From Salinibaculum rarum (GTDB lineage Archaea > Halobacteriota > Halobacteria > Halobacteriales > Haloarculaceae), in the NCBI RefSeq assembly GCF_030505615.1, contig NZ_CP129994.1, forward strand, positions 496,001-560,000: 64,000 bases of DNA, in the 5' to 3' direction. The position numbers and the translations under genes were made by a program. The stretch's first letter is position 1. Every line of letters begins with the position of its first letter. Below are positions 7,567-46,721 of the stretch, one piece after another. The notes under the pieces were generated by a model. The model made no database searches. It saw only the letters and a list, made by a program, of their open reading frames with translations, and was not told the DNA's origin.

Positions 7567-10500
7567 TTACTTGTCGTTAGCTTGTCTGAGACCCTTCGCA
7601 GCATTGCCAAGACTGGTTTGCGTCGTTTCGGAAGTGGATGTTTCATCGTCGTTGGCAGCATCATCGTCACCCTCGTTAGTTTCGGTGTCGTCACTATCCG
7701 GAGTATCATTCTCACCGTCGTCATCTGCTACGGTCTCTTCTAGTTCAGTACCTGAATCTTCCTCGCTGCTGACTGCGCTCTCTGACTCGGGTGAATCTAT
7801 GTCTTCACCAATGTTCTCAGCATTTTCTGCCTCTTCCTTGGTTGCGTTCTCTTCGATATCGACTTTCAGCTCACCTTTTTGTTCTTTATTTTCGAACTCA
7901 CCTGTGAAATTGTCGTCTTCCTCTTCTTCAGTGTTACCAGTTCCACCTTCAGAGTCAGTAGTGGATTGATCTGCGTCGTTTGCAGCCTCTGAGTTTTCTT
8001 CCGAGAGGGTGGACTCATCATCCGTGTTATTGTTGTTGTTGGTTTCCGGAGACTCGGATGACTCCTGATGAGAGTTATCATCTTGGTCAGGATCCGGTTC
8101 AGGGTCAGATTTTGATTCAGGTGGGTTTTCAGTAGCACTAGTCTCGCTAGCACCATCTTGTGAGTCTGTCTCATCAGACACCGGTTCGGTTGCAGATTCC
8201 GTCTCATGAGTTTCAGACGCGTCACCAGTAGAAGAGAATGGCTCACCATCACCAGGATCGGCATCCACTGCATCGGCACGACTTACTGTGGCATCATCGT
8301 CATCTCCTTCAGCCATGTGTTCGGCCTCGCCAGCGCGTTCATCTTCTAGACTCTCTTCAGCATCTTTGTCTTCACTGTCTATGCCTTCAGTGCTATCAGA
8401 CTCTCGCGTCTCTTGTTCTGACGCTGTTTCCTCTTCATCAGACGTCCCAGTATTTTCCTCTTCATCCCCACTCTCTTCTGCATCTGTCTCAACGTCAGCT
8501 CCGGGTGGTGCATCATCATCCACATCATCGCCACCAGTGTTTGAACCACGGTCAACGTTTGAATCAGCACTTGTCGATGAGTTCGGCGTGACTGTTCCGT
8601 CTACTTCATCATTCGAATCGTTAGCTTCGGTTTCCTCGATTTCAAGAGAACCATCGCCATCTGATTCTTCACTGTCACCATCCTCAGAATCACTACTGTT
8701 CCCGTTCACGGAGGTTGTCTGCGTGGCTCCTCCACCCGTTGACGACACAGTCCCACTAACAAGCGATTCACTTTCCTCAGTCTCGTCATCAGACTCCGAC
8801 CACCCTCTTTGAATCCGTTTGTCACCGAGTTCTTTGAGGTGGTTGTTCAGAGTATCAAGAGCTTCATCAAGATCGGTGAGCGTGGCCTGCTGATTATCTA
8901 ATAGTTCTTTGACGTGCTGGATTGCTGCGTCGAATTCCTCGTATTCGGTGTCAGAGAGTTGGTCGGCGTGATTCTGTTTGAAACTTTCAGCCTCGCCAAT
9001 GCGTCGTTTGGCTTCACTTTGGAGTTCCACCCGTTTAGTGTGTTCATTGTCTTGTGACTCATTTTCTCTTGCGTCACGGAGGTACTCCTGCACTTCCTCT
9101 TCGGAGAGATTGTCAATCCGATTTTCTTTAATCGTGACCTTCTTCTTGTGGTCATCACCAGTATCGCTGAGCTCTTTTGCGGTTGCTGTTACGAGACCGC
9201 TATCACCGATTTCGAACTCGACTTCGATTTGCGGAGCACCTTGTGGTGCTGGCGGGATGTTTGTTAAGTAAAATTCTTTCAAGAATCGGTTTTTCTCTGC
9301 GAGTTTTCGCTCCCCTTGATACACTTCAATACGAACGTTCCGCTGGTTATCTTTACTTGTTGTGAAGATTTTCGTCTCATTAGCGGGAAGGCGTGTGTTC
9401 CTGTCAATGATAGACTTAAACAACCCACCTTTGACTTTCACGCCTAGGCTGAGAGGTGTGACCTGTTGAAGAGATACACTGTCATCATTACCGTGAATGG
9501 CTGCGCCTTTTGCAACAGCTTCGTCGGGATCCACCGATGTGTTCGGGACGATGTTGAATTCTTGTTCAAGGCGTTCACGTACTTGCGGCATTCGAGTAGC
9601 CCCACCAGCAAGCAAAATTTCATCCAGTTCATAGGAACTGTAGCCTGCTTTGTCAAGAGCATTCATCGTCGGTTCAATGGTTTGCTCGAGGAGGTGTTCC
9701 GTGATATCTTGGAAAGTTCGCATCGTTAGTTCAACTTCCAAGTGTTTCGGATCGCCGTCGACGACCATTAGGTACGGAACACGCAAAGTGACTTTTCCGT
9801 CACCCTGTGAACACAACCGTTCTTTGGCGTTCTTGGACTGTTCCCGGAGACGATATTTCCGCTCTCTGAGGTCACTATCACCTTCACCGGGCTGTTTTTC
9901 TAACGGGTTCACCCCGTATTGTATCTCAAACTGGTCAGCAGCCCAGTCCATGATTACTTCATCCCAGTCGTCACCACCGAGATGTCTGTCGCCACCCGTG
10001 CCTTCGACGCTGAAGTTCCCCTCTCCAATTTCAAGGAGAGATGCATCAAATGTTCCACCACCAAGGTCGTACACGAGGACAGTTTGCTCTTTGCAGGTTT
10101 CCTCGTTATACCCGTATGCAATCGCGGCTGCAACGGGTTCACGGATTGTATCAACAGCATCAGAGAGATCAACCCGGTTCCCTTCGGAATCCCCAAATTG
10201 AGCGCGTTTAGCAGCAGCAAGAGTAGCTTGGTTTTGATCTTCAGTGAAATACGCTGGGATTGTGATGATAGCGTCACTGATTTTGTCGATTGGTTTTGCT
10301 AGGCGCTCGGCAGCGTCGAACCGGAGTTTTTCGAGGATGTGAGCTGAGATGTCGGGTGGAGAATGTGATTCCCCGTCAATTCGGACAGTGTAGTCTTCTC
10401 CCATGTGGCGTTTGATAGATTTCACAGTGCGGTCAGGATATGCTTCAGCGCCATTGAGTGCGGGTTCCCCAACATAGGGTCGGTCACTGTCTTCTGATTC

Positions 10501-10635
10501 ATCGGGGAAACGAACGACAGAAGGTGTGGTAACGTCACCTTCTGCGTTTTTGAGAATCTCGGCTTTACCGCCTTCCGTTATTGCAACTGCGCTGTTAGTC
10601 GTTCCGAGATCAATTCCGAGAACTGTATCTGCCAT
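7567..10635 (-). CDS. dnaK: DnaK-type Hsp70 chaperone with a ~410-residue acidic C-terminal tail
   Basis: Residues 1-612 are a full Hsp70. The nucleotide-binding domain has the phosphate loops [11 protein letters not shown] (7-17) and [11 protein letters not shown] (190-200). The substrate-binding domain follows (GERKLAEKN, IPPAPQGAP), then a helical lid to about 612. Residues 613-1022 are an extraordinary low-complexity tail dominated by Asp, Glu, Ser and Thr, with a short less acidic end (TSLGNAAKGLRQANDK). A usual DnaK is 600-640 residues; the second dnaK in this window (618 residues) has no such tail. The tail is in frame and uninterrupted, so it is not an artefact of a missed stop. The promoter matches that of the other dnaK. 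It lies directly upstream of mrfB and mrfA. Confidence 0.95.
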   Translation of the reverse strand: MADTVLGIDLGTTNSAVAITEGGKAEILKNAEGDVTTPSVVRFPDESEDSDRPYVGEPALNGAEAYPDRTVKSIKRHMGEDYTVRIDGESHSPPDISAHILEKLRFDAAERLAKPIDKISDAIITIPAYFTEDQNQATLAAAKRAQFGDSEGNRVDLSDAVDTIREPVAAAIAYGYNEETCKEQTVLVYDLGGGTFDASLLEIGEGNFSVEGTGGDRHLGGDDWDEVIMDWAADQFEIQYGVNPLEKQPGEGDSDLRERKYRLREQSKNAKERLCSQGDGKVTLRVPYLMVVDGDPKHLEVELTMRTFQDITEHLLEQTIEPTMNALDKAGYSSYELDEILLAGGATRMPQVRERLEQEFNIVPNTSVDPDEAVAKGAAIHGNDDSVSLQQVTPLSLGVKVKGGLFKSIIDRNTRLPANETKIFTTSKDNQRNVRIEVYQGERKLAEKNRFLKEFYLTNIPPAPQGAPQIEVEFEIGDSGLVTATAKELSDTGDDHKKKVTIKENRIDNLSEEEVQEYLRDARENESQDNEHTKRVELQSEAKRRIGEAESFKQNHADQLSDTEYEEFDAAIQHVKELLDNQQATLTDLDEALDTLNNHLKELGDKRIQRGWSESDDETEESESLVSGTVSSTGGGATQTTSVNGNSSDSEDGDSEESDGDGSLEIEETEANDSNDEVDGTVTPNSSTSADSNVDRGSNTGGDDVDDDAPPGADVETDAEESGDEEENTGTSDEEETASEQETRESDSTEGIDSEDKDAEESLEDERAGEAEHMAEGDDDDATVSRADAVDADPGDGEPFSSTGDASETHETESATEPVSDETDSQDGASETSATENPPESKSDPEPDPDQDDNSHQESSESPETNNNNNTDDESTLSEENSEAANDADQSTTDSEGGTGNTEEEEDDNFTGEFENKEQKGELKVDIEENATKEEAENAENIGEDIDSPESESAVSSEEDSGTELEETVADDDGENDTPDSDDTETNEGDDDAANDDETSTSETTQTSLGNAAKGLRQANDK

Positions 10636-12486: not shown

Positions 12487-13233
12487 TTATTCACTCTGGA
12501 TGCGTGGCGCGAGCATGAACGTAGTGTTTGCATCACCTTCGACGGTCTGGAAGTGAATTTTGACAGGGAATTCTTCGCCGACTTCCATCGTCACTTCAGC
12601 ATCACCAGGGATGGATCCGTTCATGTCCTTCAGATAGTCTACACTGAACAGAGAGTCCGCGCCGCCAGCTTGGAGGTCGATGAGTTCGTCTTGAGACAAC
12701 TGGAGATTGACGTCGTCAGTGTCTCCTTCTGCTTCAGCGTAGAACACGCCGTCGGCTTCACTAGTGCCGAATGCAACATGGTCACTCACCATGTCTGCTG
12801 CGGTGATTGCACGGTCGAACTGTTTGCCTTCAAGAACAACTTCACTAGACAGTTCCAGGTCCGGGATGTCTGGCTCTTCACGGATGCTATCCGGATCGAT
12901 GAGGGCAAGTGTGTATTCAAGCCCACCACAGCTGAGATGGAGTTTGCGAGTTTCGTCGTCGAGTTCGATGTGCGCTGGTTCACCTTCTCCGTTGAACAGC
13001 GAAATGATGTCGTTGAATCGGTTGAGATTAATGCCGAGAACGCCACCATCTGCTTCGTAAGACTCGAAGGCGTCAGCATTCAGGGTGAGATCGACCATAC
13101 CAACGTTGGCTGGATCCACAGCACGAATTTGGATGCCATCGTCTTCGAGGTGGACTTTACACTCATCAACGAGTGCGCTTACTGGTGCAAATCCGTCTTC
13201 TAGCCGCGACGGCTCTATGATTGCGTTGAACAT
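12487..13233 (-). CDS. pcn: DNA polymerase sliding clamp PCNA
   Basis: Homotrimeric ring that tethers polymerase, FEN1, ligase and other partners to DNA. At 248 residues it has the family length. It carries the haloarchaeal signatures [15 protein letters not shown] near residue 18, [13 protein letters not shown] near 38, a linker region with [18 protein letters not shown] near 108-125, and the C-terminal LAPRIQSE, where partner PIP boxes dock. The ATG at 13233 is the only sensible start. A TATA-like CATTTATG lies about 45 bases upstream, so a short leader is likely. A long open frame on the opposite strand is a codon shadow. Confidence 0.97.
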
Positions 13234-17573: not shown

Positions 17574-18650
17574 ATGACTCCTGGGAACTCGGATGAATCT
17601 GACTCCTCCTCTGGCAGGTTTTGGGAATCCTCAGCCGCAGTATCTGAGTCACCCAATGAGTCATCTGGCGGTTCATCTACTGAACCAACAGACTGGGTGC
17701 CTACTTCGTGCCCGATTTGTAGCGGTGGGCCCCTTATCGCAGATGGGAGCTCAGCAATCTGCTCCAGTTGCGATCGGGAATACACAGAGGATGAACTTTG
17801 CGAGGAATGCGGGGGTTGCATCGATTATTCTAATTCACCACCCCATTGTCGGGATTGTGGGATTGTTGTCGATGACACTCCAAGCCTTGAGAGTCAACAC
17901 GGGTGGGAAACCGCGCGTGATAACAAACGAACAGGGCCAGTGGAAACAGAAACCAAGAGAAACCGCGGTCACACAACGAGTATCGGTGAGATAAGAGATA
18001 TTAACGTCTCTCTATCAGACTCTCAAAGGCACCGTATTCAACGCCTTCAGAACACCCAACGTCAATTCCGTAGATACGGGAGTTCAGAGCGCACCACAAA
18101 GTACGCGATGGATGAGCTTAGTCGGATGGTTCCGGGACTTGGACTCCCGACACGCGTCCGTGAAACCGCTGCTGTCATCTACAGACAGGCTACAAACAAA
18201 GACCTGCATATTGGCCGGTCTGTTGAAGCGATTGCGACTGCTGCTCTCTATTTTGCATGTCAACAAGAGGATGTTGCTCGTCGGCTTGAAAAACTCGCAG
18301 AAGTATCTCGTGTAGACCAGTCATGTGTTTTCAATGCGGTGAAAACGCTGAGTCAGGAGCTTGGAATCCCAATCAAACCAACAGACCCCGGGAAGTATGT
18401 CTCACAATTCGCGTCCGAACTCGCGGTCTCTGGAGAAACAGAACGGTCAGCACGGGAACTTCTTGAAGAAGCAGAGTCACGGAACGTGTTTTCTGGTCGG
18501 AATCCCGCTGGGCTTGCAGCAGCAGCCATCTATGAGGCTTCATTATCACCAGAAGCGCAACACCTCTCCCAAGACGAAGTTGCTGAAGCTACTGATGTCT
18601 CTATGAAGACGATTAGTGCTGCCTACCGGAAACTCCGGGAAGATGACTAA
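17574..18650 (+). CDS. tfb: Transcription initiation factor TFB paralogue with extended N-terminal zinc region
   Basis: TFB recruits RNA polymerase to the TBP-TATA complex. Two cyclin-like repeats fill residues ~160-358 (YAMDELSRMVPGLGLP, SVEAIATAALYFACQQ; then FASELAVSGETERS, NPAGLAAAAIYEAS). The final helix-turn-helix recognises BRE. The N-terminal 40 residues are Ser/Glu-rich. They are followed by CPIC...CSSC and then a second set, CEECGGC...CRDC, ahead of the B-finger region. Ordinary TFB has a single C4 ribbon, so this one has an added metal-site-like segment. It is distinctly divergent from the canonical TFB at 43772-44743 and probably serves a subset of promoters. Confidence 0.9.
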   Translation: MTPGNSDESDSSSGRFWESSAAVSESPNESSGGSSTEPTDWVPTSCPICSGGPLIADGSSAICSSCDREYTEDELCEECGGCIDYSNSPPHCRDCGIVVDDTPSLESQHGWETARDNKRTGPVETETKRNRGHTTSIGEIRDINVSLSDSQRHRIQRLQNTQRQFRRYGSSERTTKYAMDELSRMVPGLGLPTRVRETAAVIYRQATNKDLHIGRSVEAIATAALYFACQQEDVARRLEKLAEVSRVDQSCVFNAVKTLSQELGIPIKPTDPGKYVSQFASELAVSGETERSARELLEEAESRNVFSGRNPAGLAAAAIYEASLSPEAQHLSQDEVAEATDVSMKTISAAYRKLREDD

Positions 18651-18693: not shown

Positions 18694-19686
18694 TCAAAAG
18701 AGGTACACAGTGAAGACCAGAATAAGATTCCCCATTGTGAGTGCTATACTGAGTCCCAAAACGATCGGGACCATGTAAGGAATCCCAGGTGAGATCCAAA
18801 CAGTTTCGTGTGGGTGTGAAGAGAGATAGTCGAGAGATTCTCGGAGTTGCCCTGGTGTGATACGACTTGAGGGAAAAGCAGATTCTTGAAGAAATACTAC
18901 TGCACCCCACGGATCGCCGCCACCGGACTCATCTAGTGGTGGTTCTGAGATGGGGGTGTCGGTTTCAGCAGTTGTTCCTGGATTTTCCCCAATACTGAAC
19001 GACCGATATGACGACGAGTCGTCGATGAGTTTTTCAACGGTTGTTTCTCGCCAATTCACGTATTTTTTGAGGACACCGATGTCAACACCCTCTTCAGAGC
19101 CGTCAAAAAAGGTCTGAATGGGGACGCCACGTGAGTTAGTGATGTTTTGGATGTCAACGGGACGTCCAACAAACATGAATGGTGAGAAATTCCCATGGAG
19201 GGCATTCCAAATTGCAAGCCCGAATGGGAAGGTAATCCCGATGATTACGACGTTTAGGAGGATGGTGAATGAAAAGACACCGTATTCTGTAAAGAGGAGT
19301 GGGAAAGCTCTTGGGGCTCCTAATTGCGTGAATACAGCTGGAACGGCGTAGTGGGGAACTATAGGATACAAAAACGAAAATACCATGATTGCTTTGGCAT
19401 CAGCGCCGCCGAGCCATTTTGTATACCAAGCCAGATAGCCGAATGGGATCAAGACGGTGATACTGATGATGGTAGCAATGAAGAAATGCGGTGTTTCACG
19501 GTATACTGCTTGGTTCCCGGCGATCTGGGAAAGATCGAGGAGGAACGCAGTAAAGGCTAACCCAACGATCGGGAGCCAGGTTTTGTTGGGGACACGGCGT
19601 GTACTGTAGTCTTTCCATGCAGCCCATCCAAAGATGGGGAGAGCAAGTAAGCGGATGAGGTCAGGGAGTAACGGAGATCGCAACAT
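18694..19686 (-). CDS. Prepilin peptidase (A24 aspartic protease, PibD-like), copy 1
   Basis: Membrane aspartyl protease that cleaves class III signal peptides of archaeal pilins and archaellins. The first catalytic Asp is in WKDYSTRRVPN (D26); the second is in GGADAK (D96), the archaeal form of GxGD. About six hydrophobic helices lie in the first 180 residues, then a cytoplasmic segment of about 110 polar residues, and a last hydrophobic helix (ETVWISPGIP...). A second copy with the same layout, including the WVSPGLP segment, is at 29105-30136. No pilin gene is visible nearby. The ATG at 19686 is preferred because it starts the first helix; TATA-like TTTTAATT lies near 19732. Confidence 0.88.
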   Translation of the reverse strand: MLRSPLLPDLIRLLALPIFGWAAWKDYSTRRVPNKTWLPIVGLAFTAFLLDLSQIAGNQAVYRETPHFFIATIISITVLIPFGYLAWYTKWLGGADAKAIMVFSFLYPIVPHYAVPAVFTQLGAPRAFPLLFTEYGVFSFTILLNVVIIGITFPFGLAIWNALHGNFSPFMFVGRPVDIQNITNSRGVPIQTFFDGSEEGVDIGVLKKYVNWRETTVEKLIDDSSSYRSFSIGENPGTTAETDTPISEPPLDESGGGDPWGAVVFLQESAFPSSRITPGQLRESLDYLSSHPHETVWISPGIPYMVPIVLGLSIALTMGNLILVFTVYLF

Positions 19687-19753
19687 AGTGATTTCGTGGT
19701 TCGTTGTTAGTATGTCTTGCAGGTTATCTCAATTAAAAGTATGCGTGGGAGAA

Positions 19754-19945
19754 CAGCACGGCTACGCTGCATGACATTCTGTGCAACGACGAAATTGATG
19801 ACAGTAGGACAGACAGCACCACTTCGGTGTGCTAGGTTTTCGAAGTGGGACGGGTTCCTGAGTGCCGTGCTGATTACCGGTCGGGCACCCCAGAGAGGCG
19901 TCCTAGCTGGCCTCTGGGAATCCGGTAATCACGGTCACTCTATTT
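19754..19945 (+). ncRNA. Candidate structured non-coding RNA
   Basis: The gene-free stretch between the prepilin peptidase and a PH-domain gene contains nested helices. CAGCACGGC (19754-19762) pairs perfectly with GCCGTGCTG (19864-19872). This is immediately followed by GATTACCGG (19872-19880) pairing with CCGGTAATC (19922-19930). Inside the first helix is a hairpin closed by C(UUCG)G (AGCACCAC-UUCG-GUGUGCU) and a further CACTTCG/CGAAGTG pairing. Inside the second is CCCAGAG...CTCTGGG. The C(UUCG)G tetraloop favours the plus strand. A TATA-like ATTAAAAG lies at 19731-19738. I see no RNase P, SRP or tRNA signature. It could alternatively be the end of a mobile element. Confidence 0.4.
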
Positions 19946-19972
19946 TCAGCTTTAGTACCGTCCATACTGAGA

Positions 19973-20095
19973 CTAATGCCTCAGTATTTGTCGCGGCATC
20001 TGGAACCTATCGACGCCGCTTGGGTCTGTGTTCTTGATGATTGGTCGAATCACCTCGGTTGGTTCATAGTTTGCATACGTGTCTTGGAACAGCAT
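19973..20095 (-). CDS. Possible 40-residue protein, unknown
   Basis: A short frame (ATG at 20093-20095, TAG at 19973-19975) encoding 40 residues that start MLFQDTYANYEP and end MPRQILRH. A good haloarchaeal promoter (AAGTTTTAACATAC, 20114-20127) lies at leaderless spacing. I do not recognise the product; it might be a small protein or the truncated start of a lost gene. It points toward the folded region at 19754-19945. Confidence 0.35.
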   Translation of the reverse strand: MLFQDTYANYEPTEVIRPIIKNTDPSGVDRFQMPRQILRH

Positions 20096-20144
20096 GTTGG
20101 GCTAATGCTTTGAGTATGTTAAAACTTCGCTTATAGAAAACTCG

Positions 20145-20693
20145 TCACAGGTCTGGATTAACTGCTGGGCTCTTTTCACCCTTAGCCCCGTTAATATGCG
20201 CTTGCACACGATTTTTCACGTCGGACGTGTCTTCAATTGTCTGGAACACGATGTCTGCTTGGTGCGGACTTGAAGAGTAAATCACGACATCACCCACAGA
20301 GAGCAACCGGGCCAGCGGTGACTGGTTAACTCGAATATGATCCGCATCTTCATACCGAATCTCAGTGTCCCCACCGATGATTCCCGTTTTCACAATCACG
20401 CGTTGGTTAGTGACTACGTAGTATGCAAGCTCTCGACGCGCATATCCCCACACGCAAACTGTGACTCCGAACGGTGCAAGAACCACAGCAAACAGTTCGA
20501 ATTTCCCTATGAGGTCTACAAACATAGGGAACAGTACACCAAACACTGCAATGACAATTCCGCCTGCAATAATCCCGTACATCTGCTTCTCCGACGGTTG
20601 ACCAACCCATTCCACCTCTTCGTCGGGATGTTCTTCGAACCATCCGGTCTGTTTAACTGGCGAGCGAAGTGCCATCATCATACACTTGGACAT
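20145..20693 (-). CDS. PH-domain (bPH2/YdbS-like) membrane protein
   Basis: A 182-residue protein. The N-terminus carries a short W-x-GQPSEKQ segment (WVGQPSEKQMYG) followed by two transmembrane helices (about residues 38-58 and 65-83). A bacterial-type PH domain follows: YYVVTNQRVIVKTGIIGG with conserved TNQR near residue 95, then IRYEDADHIRVNQSPLARLLSVGDVVIYSS. This is the YdbS/DUF304 architecture. The role is unknown; relatives are small membrane proteins of unclear function. Four in-frame ATGs compete near the start. By spacing from TATA-like CTAAAAGG (near 20710), the ATG around 20681 may be the real one. Confidence 0.78.
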   Translation of the reverse strand: MSKCMMMALRSPVKQTGWFEEHPDEEVEWVGQPSEKQMYGIIAGGIVIAVFGVLFPMFVDLIGKFELFAVVLAPFGVTVCVWGYARRELAYYVVTNQRVIVKTGIIGGDTEIRYEDADHIRVNQSPLARLLSVGDVVIYSSSPHQADIVFQTIEDTSDVKNRVQAHINGAKGEKSPAVNPDL

Positions 20694-29104: not shown

Positions 29105-30136
29105 ATGATTAGCATCGGACCACTCGACACCACGCTTCCAAACCTCGTTCGTCTTTTGTTCATCCCTGTTCTCACCTGGGCAGCATGGCGAGACTACCAA
29201 ACACGCCGTGTCCCCAACATAACCTGGCTCCCACTCATTGTCGTAAGTCTAAGTCTCTATGGACACGACCTGCTCACTGCATGGTACGCCGGATTCCCCA
29301 CTTACACGACAATCCAGCTGGTCTTTGGAGGGTTATTCCTCCCCGTACTAGCGGTTGGGCTCTGGGCCGGGAATCTCTTCGGCGGCGCCGACGTAAAAGC
29401 CATTATCGTACTCGGGTTTGGATTCGCCACCTATCCAACATACTACCTTCCCACAGTCGCCGTGCCAATAGTCACACCAACACTCGGAATCTTCGCATTC
29501 ACTGTCTTCACAAACGCAGCAGTTATTGGTGCTGTCTACCCGGTAGTTCTAAGCCTCAACAACATCATTCAACACTCACCCCCGCGCCTTGCAGCCTATA
29601 CAGCCCGACATCGAGAGACTGCATCGCTTGCCGACCTGCACGGCCGGCTCATCGAACAAGATACACAGAACGGGCGACAAGGACTTGACCTAGACGTCCT
29701 CCGGATGTACCTACAATGGCGCGGTATCACACTCCCTGAACTCCAAACGAACCCTGAACAATACCGCACCACAACTCCGAACAATCCGAACAAACCCGGA
29801 AACGGACTCGTGACAGACGGCGGACACACCCCCCAACAGACCACGAAAACCGACACCGATTCTAGACGCACACCCGATGCAACGCACGACGATGGCGAAG
29901 TAGAGAATCGCACAGAAGAGGACGATCCATGGGCTGTCGATGCCTTTCTCGCGGACACCGAGGTCACCTATGGGATGGACGCTGCGACAATTCGCCGTGG
30001 ACTCAACACGATCACCACAGAGGAAACAGTGTGGGTCAGTCCAGGACTCCCATTTTTCATCCCACTCACAATCGGATTCATTATTAGTCTCACCTACGGC
30101 GATCTTGCTATTACTGTATTCTCCACTGTTTTGTGA
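29105..30136 (+). CDS. Prepilin peptidase (A24 aspartic protease, PibD-like), copy 2
   Basis: Same architecture as the copy at 18694-19686. Catalytic Asp is in WRDYQTRRVPN (D30) and in GGADVK (D96), with about six helices to residue ~160. A polar cytoplasmic segment of about 130 residues, rich in Thr, Asn and Asp, follows, then a last helix after WVSPGLPFF. Sequence identity between the copies looks moderate, so the duplication is not recent. Two such enzymes suggest separate substrate sets or growth conditions. No pilin or archaellin gene is in the window. Confidence 0.88.
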   Translation: MISIGPLDTTLPNLVRLLFIPVLTWAAWRDYQTRRVPNITWLPLIVVSLSLYGHDLLTAWYAGFPTYTTIQLVFGGLFLPVLAVGLWAGNLFGGADVKAIIVLGFGFATYPTYYLPTVAVPIVTPTLGIFAFTVFTNAAVIGAVYPVVLSLNNIIQHSPPRLAAYTARHRETASLADLHGRLIEQDTQNGRQGLDLDVLRMYLQWRGITLPELQTNPEQYRTTTPNNPNKPGNGLVTDGGHTPQQTTKTDTDSRRTPDATHDDGEVENRTEEDDPWAVDAFLADTEVTYGMDAATIRRGLNTITTEETVWVSPGLPFFIPLTIGFIISLTYGDLAITVFSTVL

Positions 30137-40775: not shown

Positions 40776-42041
40776 TTATTCCTCTGAGACTGAAACGACC
40801 TTTCCGGCTGCAATCGTCTTCCCCATGTCACGGATGGCAAACGATCCGAGCTCCGGAATGTCATCAGCTGCTTCAAGACTAACCGCCTTCTGCGGACGGA
40901 TTGTGACTACGGCAGCATCTCCAGCTTTGAGAAATTCGGGATCTTCATCAAGGACTTCCCCTGTTGCTGGATCCAGTTTCTTGTCGATGGATTCGAAGGT
41001 CCCTGCAACCTGCGCAGTATGCGCGTGGAACACTGGGGTGTATCCGCGTGTAATAGCACTGGGGTGCTGCATCACTACAATGCGTGCTTGGAACGTCTCC
41101 GGGACAGTTGGCGGGTGTTGTTCCGTCCCCATAACGTCGCCGCGTTGAATGTCGTCATTGGAAACGTGCCGGAGATTCACACCGATGTTGTCACCAGGCA
41201 CGGCTTCAGTAATTTCCTCATGATGCATTTCGATTGACTTCACCTCGCCGCTTTCTCCTGCTGGTTCAAATCGGACGTTTGCTTCCGGTTTTACCGTTCC
41301 AGTTTCAACGCGTCCGACAGCGACCGTGCCAACTCCGTCAATTGAGTACACGTTTTGGACAGGGAGCCGGAACGGGGTGTCTGTTGGTTGTGTTGGTTCA
41401 GGGAGGCTATCTAGTGCTTCCAGAACCGTGTTTCCATCATACCACTCAAGGTCGTCACTTTGTTCAGCGACGTTGTCGCCGTGAAGAGCAGACGCAGGCA
41501 CAAACCGAGTTTTTTCTTCCGGGAATTGCACCTGCGCGAGGAGAGACTTCGTGTCTTCCACGATGTTCGTGTAGTCTTCTTCGCAGTAGTCCACCATGTC
41601 GATCTTATTCACCACAACGATGAGTTCCTCAATCCCGAGGGTGCGGGCAAGGAACACATGTTCGCGGGTCTGTGTTTGGACACCGTTATTGGCAGAGACG
41701 ACCAGCACAGCGTTGTCAGCCTGGCTTGCGCCTGTGATCATGTTCTTCACGAAGTCGCTGTGCCCAGGACAGTCTACGATGGTGAATTCGTAATTACCCG
41801 TCTCGAATTCCTGGTGACCAATATCGATTGTAACCCCGCGGTTACGTTCTTCCTCGAGGCCATCCATCACGTAGGCGAATTCGAAGCCGCCCTTGCCTTT
41901 CTCTTCGGCTTTTTCTTTGTGTTGCTCAATGACGTGTTCGGGGACACTCCCTGTCTCGTAGAGGAGTCGTCCTACGAGTGTACTTTTTCCGTGGTCAACG
42001 TGCCCAATGATGGCCAGATTCTGGTGTGGATTCGCAGACAT
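40776..42041 (-). CDS. tuf: Translation elongation factor EF-1A (aEF1A)
   Basis: GTPase that delivers aminoacyl-tRNA to the ribosome. The 421-residue length and motifs fit: [10 protein letters not shown] (P-loop, about 14-23), the Thr of switch I in [21 protein letters not shown] (G3), NKID (G4) and SALHGDN (G5). G3 is DCPGHSD where archaeal EF-1A usually has DCPGHRD, a divergent detail. The C-terminal beta-barrels end with [19 protein letters not shown]. In many haloarchaea rps10 follows tuf; here a histone-fold gene follows instead. The start ATG is 30 bases from a strong TATA. Confidence 0.97.
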
Positions 42042-43771: not shown

Positions 43772-44743
43772 CTAGACATCTTCGAAGACGTCAGCCGCTT
43801 CCACCAGCTCTTGGTACCGGTTGCGGATCGTGACTTCAGTTACTTGCGCCACTTCCGAGATTTCACGTTGCGTTCGTCTTTCTCCAGTCAAACATGACGC
43901 TGCATACAGTGCCGCCGCAGCTAATCCAGGCGGGGATTTTCCGGAGATCACCGTAGGGTCCGGGCTATCTAGCAATACTCTTGCCTTGGCTTGAACCTCC
44001 TCACTGAGCTTCAACTCGCTCGCAAACCGTGGTAGGTACTGTTTCGGGTCAGTTGGGCTGATTTCTAGTCCTAGTTCGGACATGATATACCGGTACGTCC
44101 GGGAGATTTCTTTTTTCTCCACGCGAGATACTTCACTTACTTCGTCCAACGACCGGGGAATGGTTTCTTGCCGACAGGCCGCGTAGAGAGCTGCTGTCGC
44201 CACGCCTTCAATCGACCGGCCACGAATCAGATCTTCCTTGAGCGCCCGTCGATAAATTACTGCTCCAACCTCTCGAACATCATCCGGAATTCCCATTGCA
44301 GATGCCATTCGATCCATCTCAGACAGCGCAAACTGGAGATTTCTCTCACCCGCATCTTTTGTCCGAATGCGTTCTTGCCATTTCCGCAGTCGATTCATCT
44401 GCGACCGACGGTCTGACGACAGCGCGTTCCCGTAAGCGTCTTTGTTTTGCCAGTCGATATTCGTCGTCAATCCTTTGTCGTGCATCGTCTTCGTCGTCGG
44501 AGCGCCAACACGACTTTTCGAATCTCTGTCTTCCTGGTCGAACGATCGCCACTCTGGCCCGTGGTCAATTTCGTCTTCTTCAACTACAAGTCCGCAATCC
44601 CTACAGACGACTTCGCCACGTTGTTCGTCTGTTTCTAGCGTTTCAGAACGGCACTCAGGGCATTCGCCTTCACGAACCTCTTCTGAGTCCTCATCTTCCA
44701 ATTCGTCCACGACTGTTTCGGTAGTTTGAGTCGTCTGAGTCAT
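43772..44743 (-). CDS. tfb: Transcription initiation factor TFB (canonical)
   Basis: A 323-residue TFB. An acidic N-terminus of ~25 residues is followed by a C4 zinc ribbon ([23 protein letters not shown], read as pairs CPEC and CRDC). Then come the B-finger/linker with [19 protein letters not shown] and the two cyclin repeats ([33 protein letters not shown]) ending in the BRE-reading helix-turn-helix ([12 protein letters not shown]). It contains every usual segment and is likely the housekeeping TFB; compare the unusual paralogue at 17574-18650. A TATA-like CAATATAAC lies 25-30 bases upstream. Confidence 0.97.
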
Positions 44744-44864: not shown

Positions 44865-46721
44865 TTAGTCATCACTGAGATCTCGGAAACTCGCATCAAC
44901 GTTGTCAACTTCTCCGCCGGCTTCTGCGGTTGCGGTCTCCCCAGTACCTGCGTCAGTGAGTGCGTTGTCCTCTGATTTGGGGCTGGAGAGTTTTGATTCA
45001 TCCACTTTACCAAGAGTGGTCTCGATTTGACTGGCTACGCGATCGTACCGTGAAATATCAGTCGTACTCTCTTCAAGCGCAGTTTCAGCATCATCGATTG
45101 CAGCTTCCAGTTCTTGAACAACATTGTTTGCAATGGCGTCACGGTTCTCTTGGAGGACCCGTTCTGCGCGTTGCTTCATCTGTTCGGCATGAGTCTGCGC
45201 CTCGATGCGACGACGTTGCATCTCATCTTCGTCGGAATGCTGCTGTGCGTCTTGCTTCATACGTTCGACTTCCTTGTCGCTGAGACCGACACCACCTTCG
45301 ATTGTGACTTTCTCATGTTCCCCGGAGTCACGCTCTTTGGCGGCGACATGCATGATTCCACTTTCGTCAATCTGGAACGTGAGTTCGATTTTCGGGGTTC
45401 CAGCTGGGGCTGGTGGGATGCCTCGGAGTTTGAACTCATCTAGGAGTTCGTTTTCTTCAGCGACTTCGCGTTCACCTTGGAAGACTCGGATCTGAACCTG
45501 TCTTTGTTCGTCTTCCGCAGTGGTGAACACTTTAGACTCAGATGTCGGGATTGTCGTGTTGGCGTTGATGATACGCTCGAAGAGCCCGCCTTTCACTTCA
45601 ACACCAAGAGAGAGTGGTGTGACGTCAAGAAGCACCAAATCATCAACTTCACCACTGAGGACACCGCCTTGAATTGCGGCGCCAAGAGCGGCTGCTTCAT
45701 CGGGGTTAACGTTCATCTGCGGTTCCATCCCAACGATGTCAGCGACTTGCTCTTTGATGACTGGAATCCGCGTAGACCCACCGACTAGGATGACTTCGTC
45801 GATTTCGTCTGTGCTGTATCCCGCGTCGGAGAGAGCCTTCTTTGTGGGAGCAGAAGTGCGTTCAACAAGGTGGTCAGTGAGATCTTGGAAGGTGTCGCGG
45901 GTGATTGACTTCTCGAGATGCATGGGGCCTTCGTCAGTGGAAGCAATGAAGGGAAGGTTCACTTCAGTTTCCTTCCGAGAAGACAGCTCAATTTTGGCTT
46001 TTTCTGCGGCATCACGAAGGCGCTGAAGAGCTTGACGATCATCTCGGAGGCTGATGTCATGTTCGTCTTCAAAGTGGTCTGCGAGCCATTCTTTGACTGT
46101 TTCGTCCCAGTCGTCACCACCAAGACTCGTGTCACCGTTCGTAGCAACTACTTCGTGGACACCATCACCGAGTTCTAACACAGAAACATCGAATGTTCCA
46201 CCACCAAGGTCGAAAACAAGAACAGACTGGTCACGAGTGTCATCAAGTCCGTATGCCATCGCCGCGGCAGTGGGTTCATTGATGATGCGTTCGACATCAA
46301 ACCCAGCGATACGTCCTGCGTCTTTTGTGGCTTGGCGTTGCTTGTCGTTGAAGTACGCTGGAACCGTGATGACAGCGCGTTCGATTTCTTCGCCGAGGTA
46401 CGTTTCGGCGTCGTTTTTGATTTTCTGGAGGATGTGTGCCGAAACCTCTTCAGGGGTGTAGGATTCTCCACCAAGTTCAACGGTGTAATCCTCCTCTCCC
46501 ATATGGCGTTTAATCGATTCGACTGTGTTCTCAGGGTTTTGGATAGCTTGGTTCTTCGCAGGCTCCCCAACGATAAGTTCATCGTCATTGTAGGCAACAA
46601 CAGATGGAGTTGTCCGGTCACCTTCTCCGTTGACAATGACTTCGGGGTCCCCATTCTCCATTACGGCCATTGCGGAGTTGGTTGTACCGAGGTCTATACC
46701 GAGAATCTTATCCGATGCCAT
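44865..46721 (-). CDS. dnaK: Molecular chaperone DnaK (canonical Hsp70)
   Basis: A 618-residue Hsp70 with [11 protein letters not shown] near residue 7, the second phosphate loop [17 protein letters not shown] near 170, the substrate domain ([25 protein letters not shown]) and a helical lid. It ends in a short acidic segment (FRDLSDD). No grpE or dnaJ gene is adjacent; the only J-domain protein in the window is the membrane form at 10909-12306. The promoter contains a 13-mer identical to that of the tailed dnaK, so both are probably under the same regulation, perhaps heat or osmotic stress. Confidence 0.97.

Follow-up and report, generated by a model that had tools for sequence, protein, structure and literature searches.

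A 458-base gap between two protein genes of Salinibaculum rarum may give rise to an orphan transcript of about 360 nt from the minus strand, which would be either an intergenic sRNA specific to the species or a short mRNA whose 3′ tail is structured, and we put this reading forward tentatively. The preliminary description of the locus proposed a novel non-coding RNA, and a structured intergenic RNA outside the Rfam families is still the leading idea; what has changed are its strand, its ends, the role of the TATA-like element and the tetraloop. On the grounds of fold z-scores and promoter matches, the earlier bounds of 19731 to 19945 on the plus strand are replaced by about 20095 to 19735 on the minus strand. 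That the unit is transcribed, where it begins and ends, that any open reading frame in it is translated and that its hairpins stabilize or terminate an RNA are all proposals of ours.

The gap (19687-20144) lies in a window of 64,000 nucleotides, the whole stretch analyzed here, which corresponds to positions 496001-560000 of a contig of 560,538 bases (C3) in a genome of three contigs and 3.54 Mb; coordinates are those of the window unless prefixed with the contig. The GC content of C3 is 52.9%, compared with 63-64% in the main contig of 2.93 Mb, sampled in three stretches of 20 kb. Both flanking genes are on the minus strand. The upstream neighbor encodes a bacterial-PH-domain protein of 182 aa (20145-20693; Pfam PF03703 above cut-off) and the downstream neighbor an archaeal A24 (prepilin) peptidase of 330 aa (18694-19686; PF01478 and PF06847 above cut-off). 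Another paralogue of the A24 prepilin peptidase, recognized by Pfam and 34% identical to the first, is located 9 kb away at 29105-30136.

Both perfect 9-bp helices of the preliminary description are present exactly where they had been placed, with base 19872 in common. Helix 1 pairs CAGCACGGC (19754-19762) with GCCGTGCTG (19864-19872), and helix 2 pairs GATTACCGG (19872-19880) with CCGGTAATC (19922-19930), the latter amounting to 10 bp once T19871 and A19931 are included. Taken alone on the minus strand, the helix 1 element (19754-19872), in which the 9-bp arms enclose a branched interior, has a fold z-score of -3.33 (plus strand, -2.24), and the helix 2 element (19871-19931), consisting of the 10-bp perfect arms and an inner hairpin, one of -3.18 (plus strand, -2.94). 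The interior of helix 1 includes an 8-bp helix formed by CCACTTCG (19819-19826) and CGAAGTGG (19841-19848), and the C(UUCG)G tetraloop described earlier has to be given up, as the TTCG at 19823-19826 is placed inside this helix by both the minimum-energy and the centroid structure of the plus strand.

The structured stretch extends further, to about 20019, and comprises two more clear hairpins and one weaker hairpin, all predicted by folding of the minus strand. Hairpin A (19993-20019) has 8 bp including one G-U pair between GCGGCGTC and GATGCCGC, hairpin B (19964-19987) has 10 bp including one G-U pair around a 4-nt loop (ATACTGAGGC with GTCTCAGTAT), and the weak hairpin C (19931-19961) pairs ACGGTACT with AGT-ACCGT. 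On the plus strand, the G-U pair of hairpin A and that of hairpin B each become an A-C mismatch.

Mostly, the fold z-scores and the promoter matches favor the minus strand, although this preference depends on how the region is cut. In all eight of the bounded pieces that were compared, the bounds being chosen by us, the minus strand had the lower z-score. For 19750-19935 the values were -2.69 on the minus strand (equalled or bettered by 3 of 200 shuffles) and -1.53 on the plus strand (14 of 200), and with exact bounds they were -3.52 and -2.3. The same direction is seen for 19754-20025 (-3.34 versus -2.21), for 19690-20144 (-3.45 versus -1.16) and for 19932-20025 (-3.85 versus -0.67), which is structured on the minus strand only, while 20026-20144 shows no excess structure (minus-strand z -0.15). 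Two cuts favor the plus strand, namely 19671-19820 (-2.14 plus, +0.44 minus) and 19582-19941 (-2.43 plus, -1.67 minus).

A non-coding RNA on the plus strand with the originally proposed bounds appears very improbable to us. It would draw on the main helices, which are purely Watson-Crick and fold on either strand, on the plus-strand z-score with exact bounds and on raw folding energy, which is lower on the plus strand for several pieces, including the one with exact bounds (-69.0 versus -66.2) and 19690-20144 (-145.5 versus -134.5). Against it stand the loss of pairs in hairpins A and B on that strand and the distribution of promoter-like sites described below.

How exceptional the minus-strand fold is depends on the yardstick. 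The best-bounded piece, 19871-20021, reaches a z-score of -4.85 with none of 200 shuffles as good, its bounds having been picked after the fold had been seen; the lowest value among 852 regularly placed 150-nt windows is -3.63. For 19735-20094, 20 shuffles gave -4.19 on the minus and -1.25 on the plus strand. When 196 strand segments of 360 nt, taken at random from the window in a scan of 98 positions, were treated likewise with 20 shuffles each, a z-score of -4.19 or lower was found in one, at another locus, and a z-score of -3 or lower in five, of which one overlaps the gap. The fold is therefore within the top 1% and yet not exceptional for 64 kb of DNA.

Evidence on transcription was sought in a 14-base promoter motif that was learned de novo from 347 regions upstream of C3 open reading frames of at least 120 aa. 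The motif resembles the haloarchaeal BRE (CGAAA) and TATA element (TTWT) as given for Haloferax (PMC4983044), and its sites of at least 9.5 bits peak 28-52 nt ahead of the starts of C3 open reading frames, as expected for leaderless genes. The 99.99th percentile of the motif score, determined over both strands of the first 500 kb of C3, is 10.05 bits. Between 19601 and 20200 the two highest-scoring sites belong to the minus strand and bracket the structure; the plus strand of the same interval holds no site above 5.7 bits, which weighs against transcription in that direction. The first of the two, AAGCGAAGTTTTAA at 20132-20119 (10.0 bits), is a predicted BRE/TATA promoter and should be outside the training set, since it is upstream of no open reading frame of at least 120 aa. 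The second, ACGCATACTTTTAA at 19746-19733 (10.4 bits), is the predicted promoter of the A24 peptidase gene, and its score is slightly circular because the upstream region of that gene falls under the rule for the training set. The TATA-like element noticed earlier does correspond to a promoter-like match, the one at 19746-19733, but it is on the minus strand and likely serves the A24 gene.

A lone promoter site is nevertheless weak evidence, because many intergenic sites have no suitably placed open reading frame: of the 189 sites of at least 9.5 bits on C3, 92 are intergenic, and 51 of the 189 are intergenic without an open reading frame of at least 120 aa located 25-75 nt downstream. Sites of at least 10 bits occur at 0.32 per 1000 positions in intergenic and 0.06 in coding DNA.

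Downstream of the 20132-20119 site is an open reading frame of 40 codons (19973-20095, minus strand; MLFQDTYANYEPTEVIRPIIKNTDPSGVDRFQMPRQILRH) that could be a leaderless small gene. Its ATG at 20095 is 37 nt past the start of the promoter motif, within the spacing peak of C3, and its stop codon is overlapped by hairpin B. The mean codon score of the frame is 0.083, between the means of real genes (0.287) and of wrong frames (-0.194); a score this low or lower is seen in 13% of real-gene pieces, and one this high or higher in 6.9% of wrong-frame pieces. The 40-aa sequence has no Pfam match, and neither plasmids and phages, at E values up to 10, nor the 391 order genomes other than its own (of 392), at E ≤ 0.01, yielded a match.

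From these elements we derive a proposed minus-strand transcript of about 361 nt, from about 20095 to 19735, with its start set by the promoter spacing and its end at the first minus-strand run of four Ts past the 40-codon frame (19738-19735). An RNA of about 360 nt would be longer than a typical sRNA. In the proposed sequence of events, the BRE/TATA promoter at 20132-20119 would start transcription on the minus strand near 20095, and the RNA would cross the possible leaderless frame and then the contiguous hairpins A, B and C, helix 2 and helix 1, probably to end at the T run, inside the promoter-like site of the A24 gene. The hairpins may constitute a stable, exonuclease-resistant 3′ part and may aid termination ahead of the A24 gene. 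The arrangement invites another interpretation, that the structure is a long 5′ leader of the A24 peptidase mRNA, akin to a riboswitch or thermosensor; it is on the same strand and stops about 67 nt ahead of the ATG at 19686, but a separate promoter match for the gene follows downstream of the structure, at 19746-19733, and we regard such a leader as improbable.

An orphan minus-strand transcript would have features of three known kinds of haloarchaeal element. Like the intergenic sRNAs of Haloferax volcanii (PMC4983044; PMC6560208), of which the first study mapped 395 as novel intergenic RNAs, it would be small and intergenic with a predicted BRE/TATA promoter of its own, and the locus carries no protein family; unlike them, it is predicted from sequence and has no relative in the genomes searched. 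Like haloarchaeal leaderless small-protein genes (PMC10716476), it would have 40 codons and a predicted promoter placed to start transcription near the ATG; in contrast to these, the encoded 40 residues contain no cysteine and hence no C(P)XCG zinc finger. Finally, the arrangement of hairpins with a T run after them on the coding strand resembles haloarchaeal hairpin terminators and structured 3′ untranslated regions (PMC7237163). In H. volcanii, according to that work, intergenic termination uses a stretch of Ts, 503 termination sites are preceded by hairpins, and a Haloferax hairpin that was tested ended 59% of transcripts. The row of hairpins here, however, spans about 265 nt, which would seem more than a terminator should need.

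The earlier statement that no known RNA signature is present holds for the window as a whole, in which 4227 Rfam models gave no match above the gathering cut-off and ARAGORN found no tRNA or tmRNA. Within 19680-20150, allowing E values up to 10, Rfam returned only C0299 and SNORD43, both far below cut-off. We rejected a C/D-box reading, as the SNORD43-type match is at chance level and inspection by eye revealed no closing stem around the boxes, and likewise an H/ACA guide RNA, for which no fitting ANA box or pocket was seen by eye.

Relatives of the DNA were sought in 146 genomes of the family and in 392 genomes of the order, an even draw from a larger group, and in neither set did the spacer have any beyond short matches at chance level. 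A match at E ≤ 1 occurred in 65 of the 146 family genomes, one being the genome itself; in the other 64 only pieces of about 16-42 nt were matched, with a best E value of 0.006, and that piece was again the sole non-self match at E ≤ 0.01 among the 392 order genomes. For each of two structure models, R1 and R2, a single sequence entered twice served as input. Apart from itself, R1 found one match at E 8.5 in its own genome; the sister genome gave none, and within the window the next best match was at E 0.31. R2, searched against the 146 genomes with stricter filters, found itself and nine weak matches, and in C3 without the last 538 bases only itself. All nine were read: eight cover the helix 2 part only, in the ninth many pairs are broken, and at least five resemble, by eye, one and the same protein-coding stretch; for these reasons we treat them as chance. 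The sole match to the helix 2 pattern in viral contigs, inside a long open reading frame, was discarded.

The best match of the A24 protein, in the sister genome, is 39% identical; the protein has no plasmid match and no close relatives in viral or genome contigs, and close relatives of the neighboring proteins and of the EF-1alpha encoded on C3 were not found in viral contigs either. By profile, relatives of the PH-domain protein were found in 15 of 58 genomes and those of a 235-aa neighboring protein in 173 of 392, the genome itself being included in both counts. Among 27 loci of such relatives, examined with about 1.5 kb of flank each, none had a second of the four neighboring proteins, and none had spacer-like DNA at E ≤ 0.1.

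These searches bear on whether the locus acts as DNA, for example as the end of a mobile element, the main alternative named in the preliminary description, or as a palindrome for recombination or replication. The inverted-repeat arms and the plasmid-like character of the replicon would suit such an element. The dispersed copies that a mobile-element end might have left were not found: the locus is single-copy in its own genome, also when C3 was scanned alone, and searches of 72,556 plasmid and 50,697 phage records gave no match. Between 19600 and 20200 there are no direct repeats of at least 10 bases (shorter duplications were looked for by eye only), and the G-U pairs of hairpins A and B favor one strand, which a DNA element does not need. 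We consider a DNA-level role unlikely.

A stronger competitor is that there is no functional RNA and that two or three ordinary plasmid inverted repeats happen to lie side by side; we regard this as a serious possibility. The window contains 23 perfect 9-bp inverted repeats with a span of up to 125, compared with 24.3 (sd 4.3) in 60 dinucleotide shuffles, and each of the two helices alone is accordingly expected by chance. Their adjacency is mildly unusual, as two such repeats back to back were seen in one of the 60 shuffles. In the spacers of the window, five inverted repeats with 9-bp arms and a spacer of up to 60 were counted against 1.8 expected, a 2.8-fold excess similar to the 3.0-6.7-fold seen in stretches from four further haloarchaeal plasmids and the 2.0-fold in 460 kb sampled from the main chromosome. 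The absence of conservation in the family and order genomes and the shift of strand preference with the cut also fit a neutral origin. On the other hand, a strand asymmetry in eight of eight pieces together with promoter matches on the same strand would not be expected of neutral DNA palindromes, and the minus-strand z-score of -4.19 was matched by a single one of the 196 random segments. The minus-strand transcript is, on balance, the reading we prefer.

C3 as a whole is much richer in such repeats, with 172 in all its spacers against 17.0 expected, ten times as many. They show no preference for the type of gap or gene orientation, for position or for a following T run, and the excess is concentrated at C3 200-500 kb, where it is about 15- to 20-fold over shuffled sequence. 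As the window has an excess of only 2.8-fold, like other plasmids, the gap is not clearly part of the phenomenon at 200-500 kb, and a replicon-wide explanation of the locus is narrowed to that extent. The scan of fold z-scores over C3 spacers left out the 19687-20144 gap, part of which is covered by a 106-aa open reading frame. It revealed spacers with long near-perfect hairpins, for example at C3:261808, 253968, 284380, 367232, 440042 and also 172827. The hairpin-rich spacers often contain several hairpins in a row, reach z-scores down to -14 (16 shuffles) and have sequence in common in at least 17 of 109 cases.

The replicon itself carries genes of the information-processing and chaperone kind. 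An EF-1alpha gene, named by its matches, is found at 40776-42041, with a best identity of about 70% to copies on other haloarchaeal plasmids; the best 15 plasmid matches listed are all haloarchaeal, and in the stretches that were read of three haloarchaeal plasmids bearing EF-1alpha most of the remaining genes are of ordinary metabolic or plasmid types. A PCNA-like frame (12487-13233) and two DnaK-like frames (7567-10635 and 44865-46721) were recognized by eye, as was one of two TFIIB-like frames (43772-44743), the other (17574-18650) being identified by Pfam. ARAGORN predicts 19 tRNA genes on C3, tRNA genes being present in the loci L048, L050, L051, L060 and L064, and Rfam adds two tRNA matches (L051 17933-18010 and L064 9766-9893). 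tRNA genes are unusual for a plasmid. In C3, scanned without the last 538 bases, no rRNA match attained the Rfam cut-off. Within a cluster of tRNA genes is a diverged archaeal RNase P RNA (C3:133488-133886; L044 1501-1899), which scores 63.7 bits against a cut-off of 84 and has long matches to the conserved stretches of the model; the host's own RNase P RNA, on contig C1, scores 171 bits. That the gap encodes an undescribed structured RNA of about 360 nt, perhaps with a dual function through a 40-aa product, that serves the replicon's own RNA biology strikes us as quite improbable.

The locus also carries a caution for the interpretation of raw sequence, from which the helices can be read but not the strand. 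In this case the strand opposite to that first proposed is favored by fold statistics and by promoter matches. If transcribed, the gap would add one more orphan intergenic RNA to those of the haloarchaea, and its interest would be local. Mainly, we believe, it points to the replicon on which it resides, a 560-kb molecule of lower GC content that carries tRNA genes and its own RNase P RNA.
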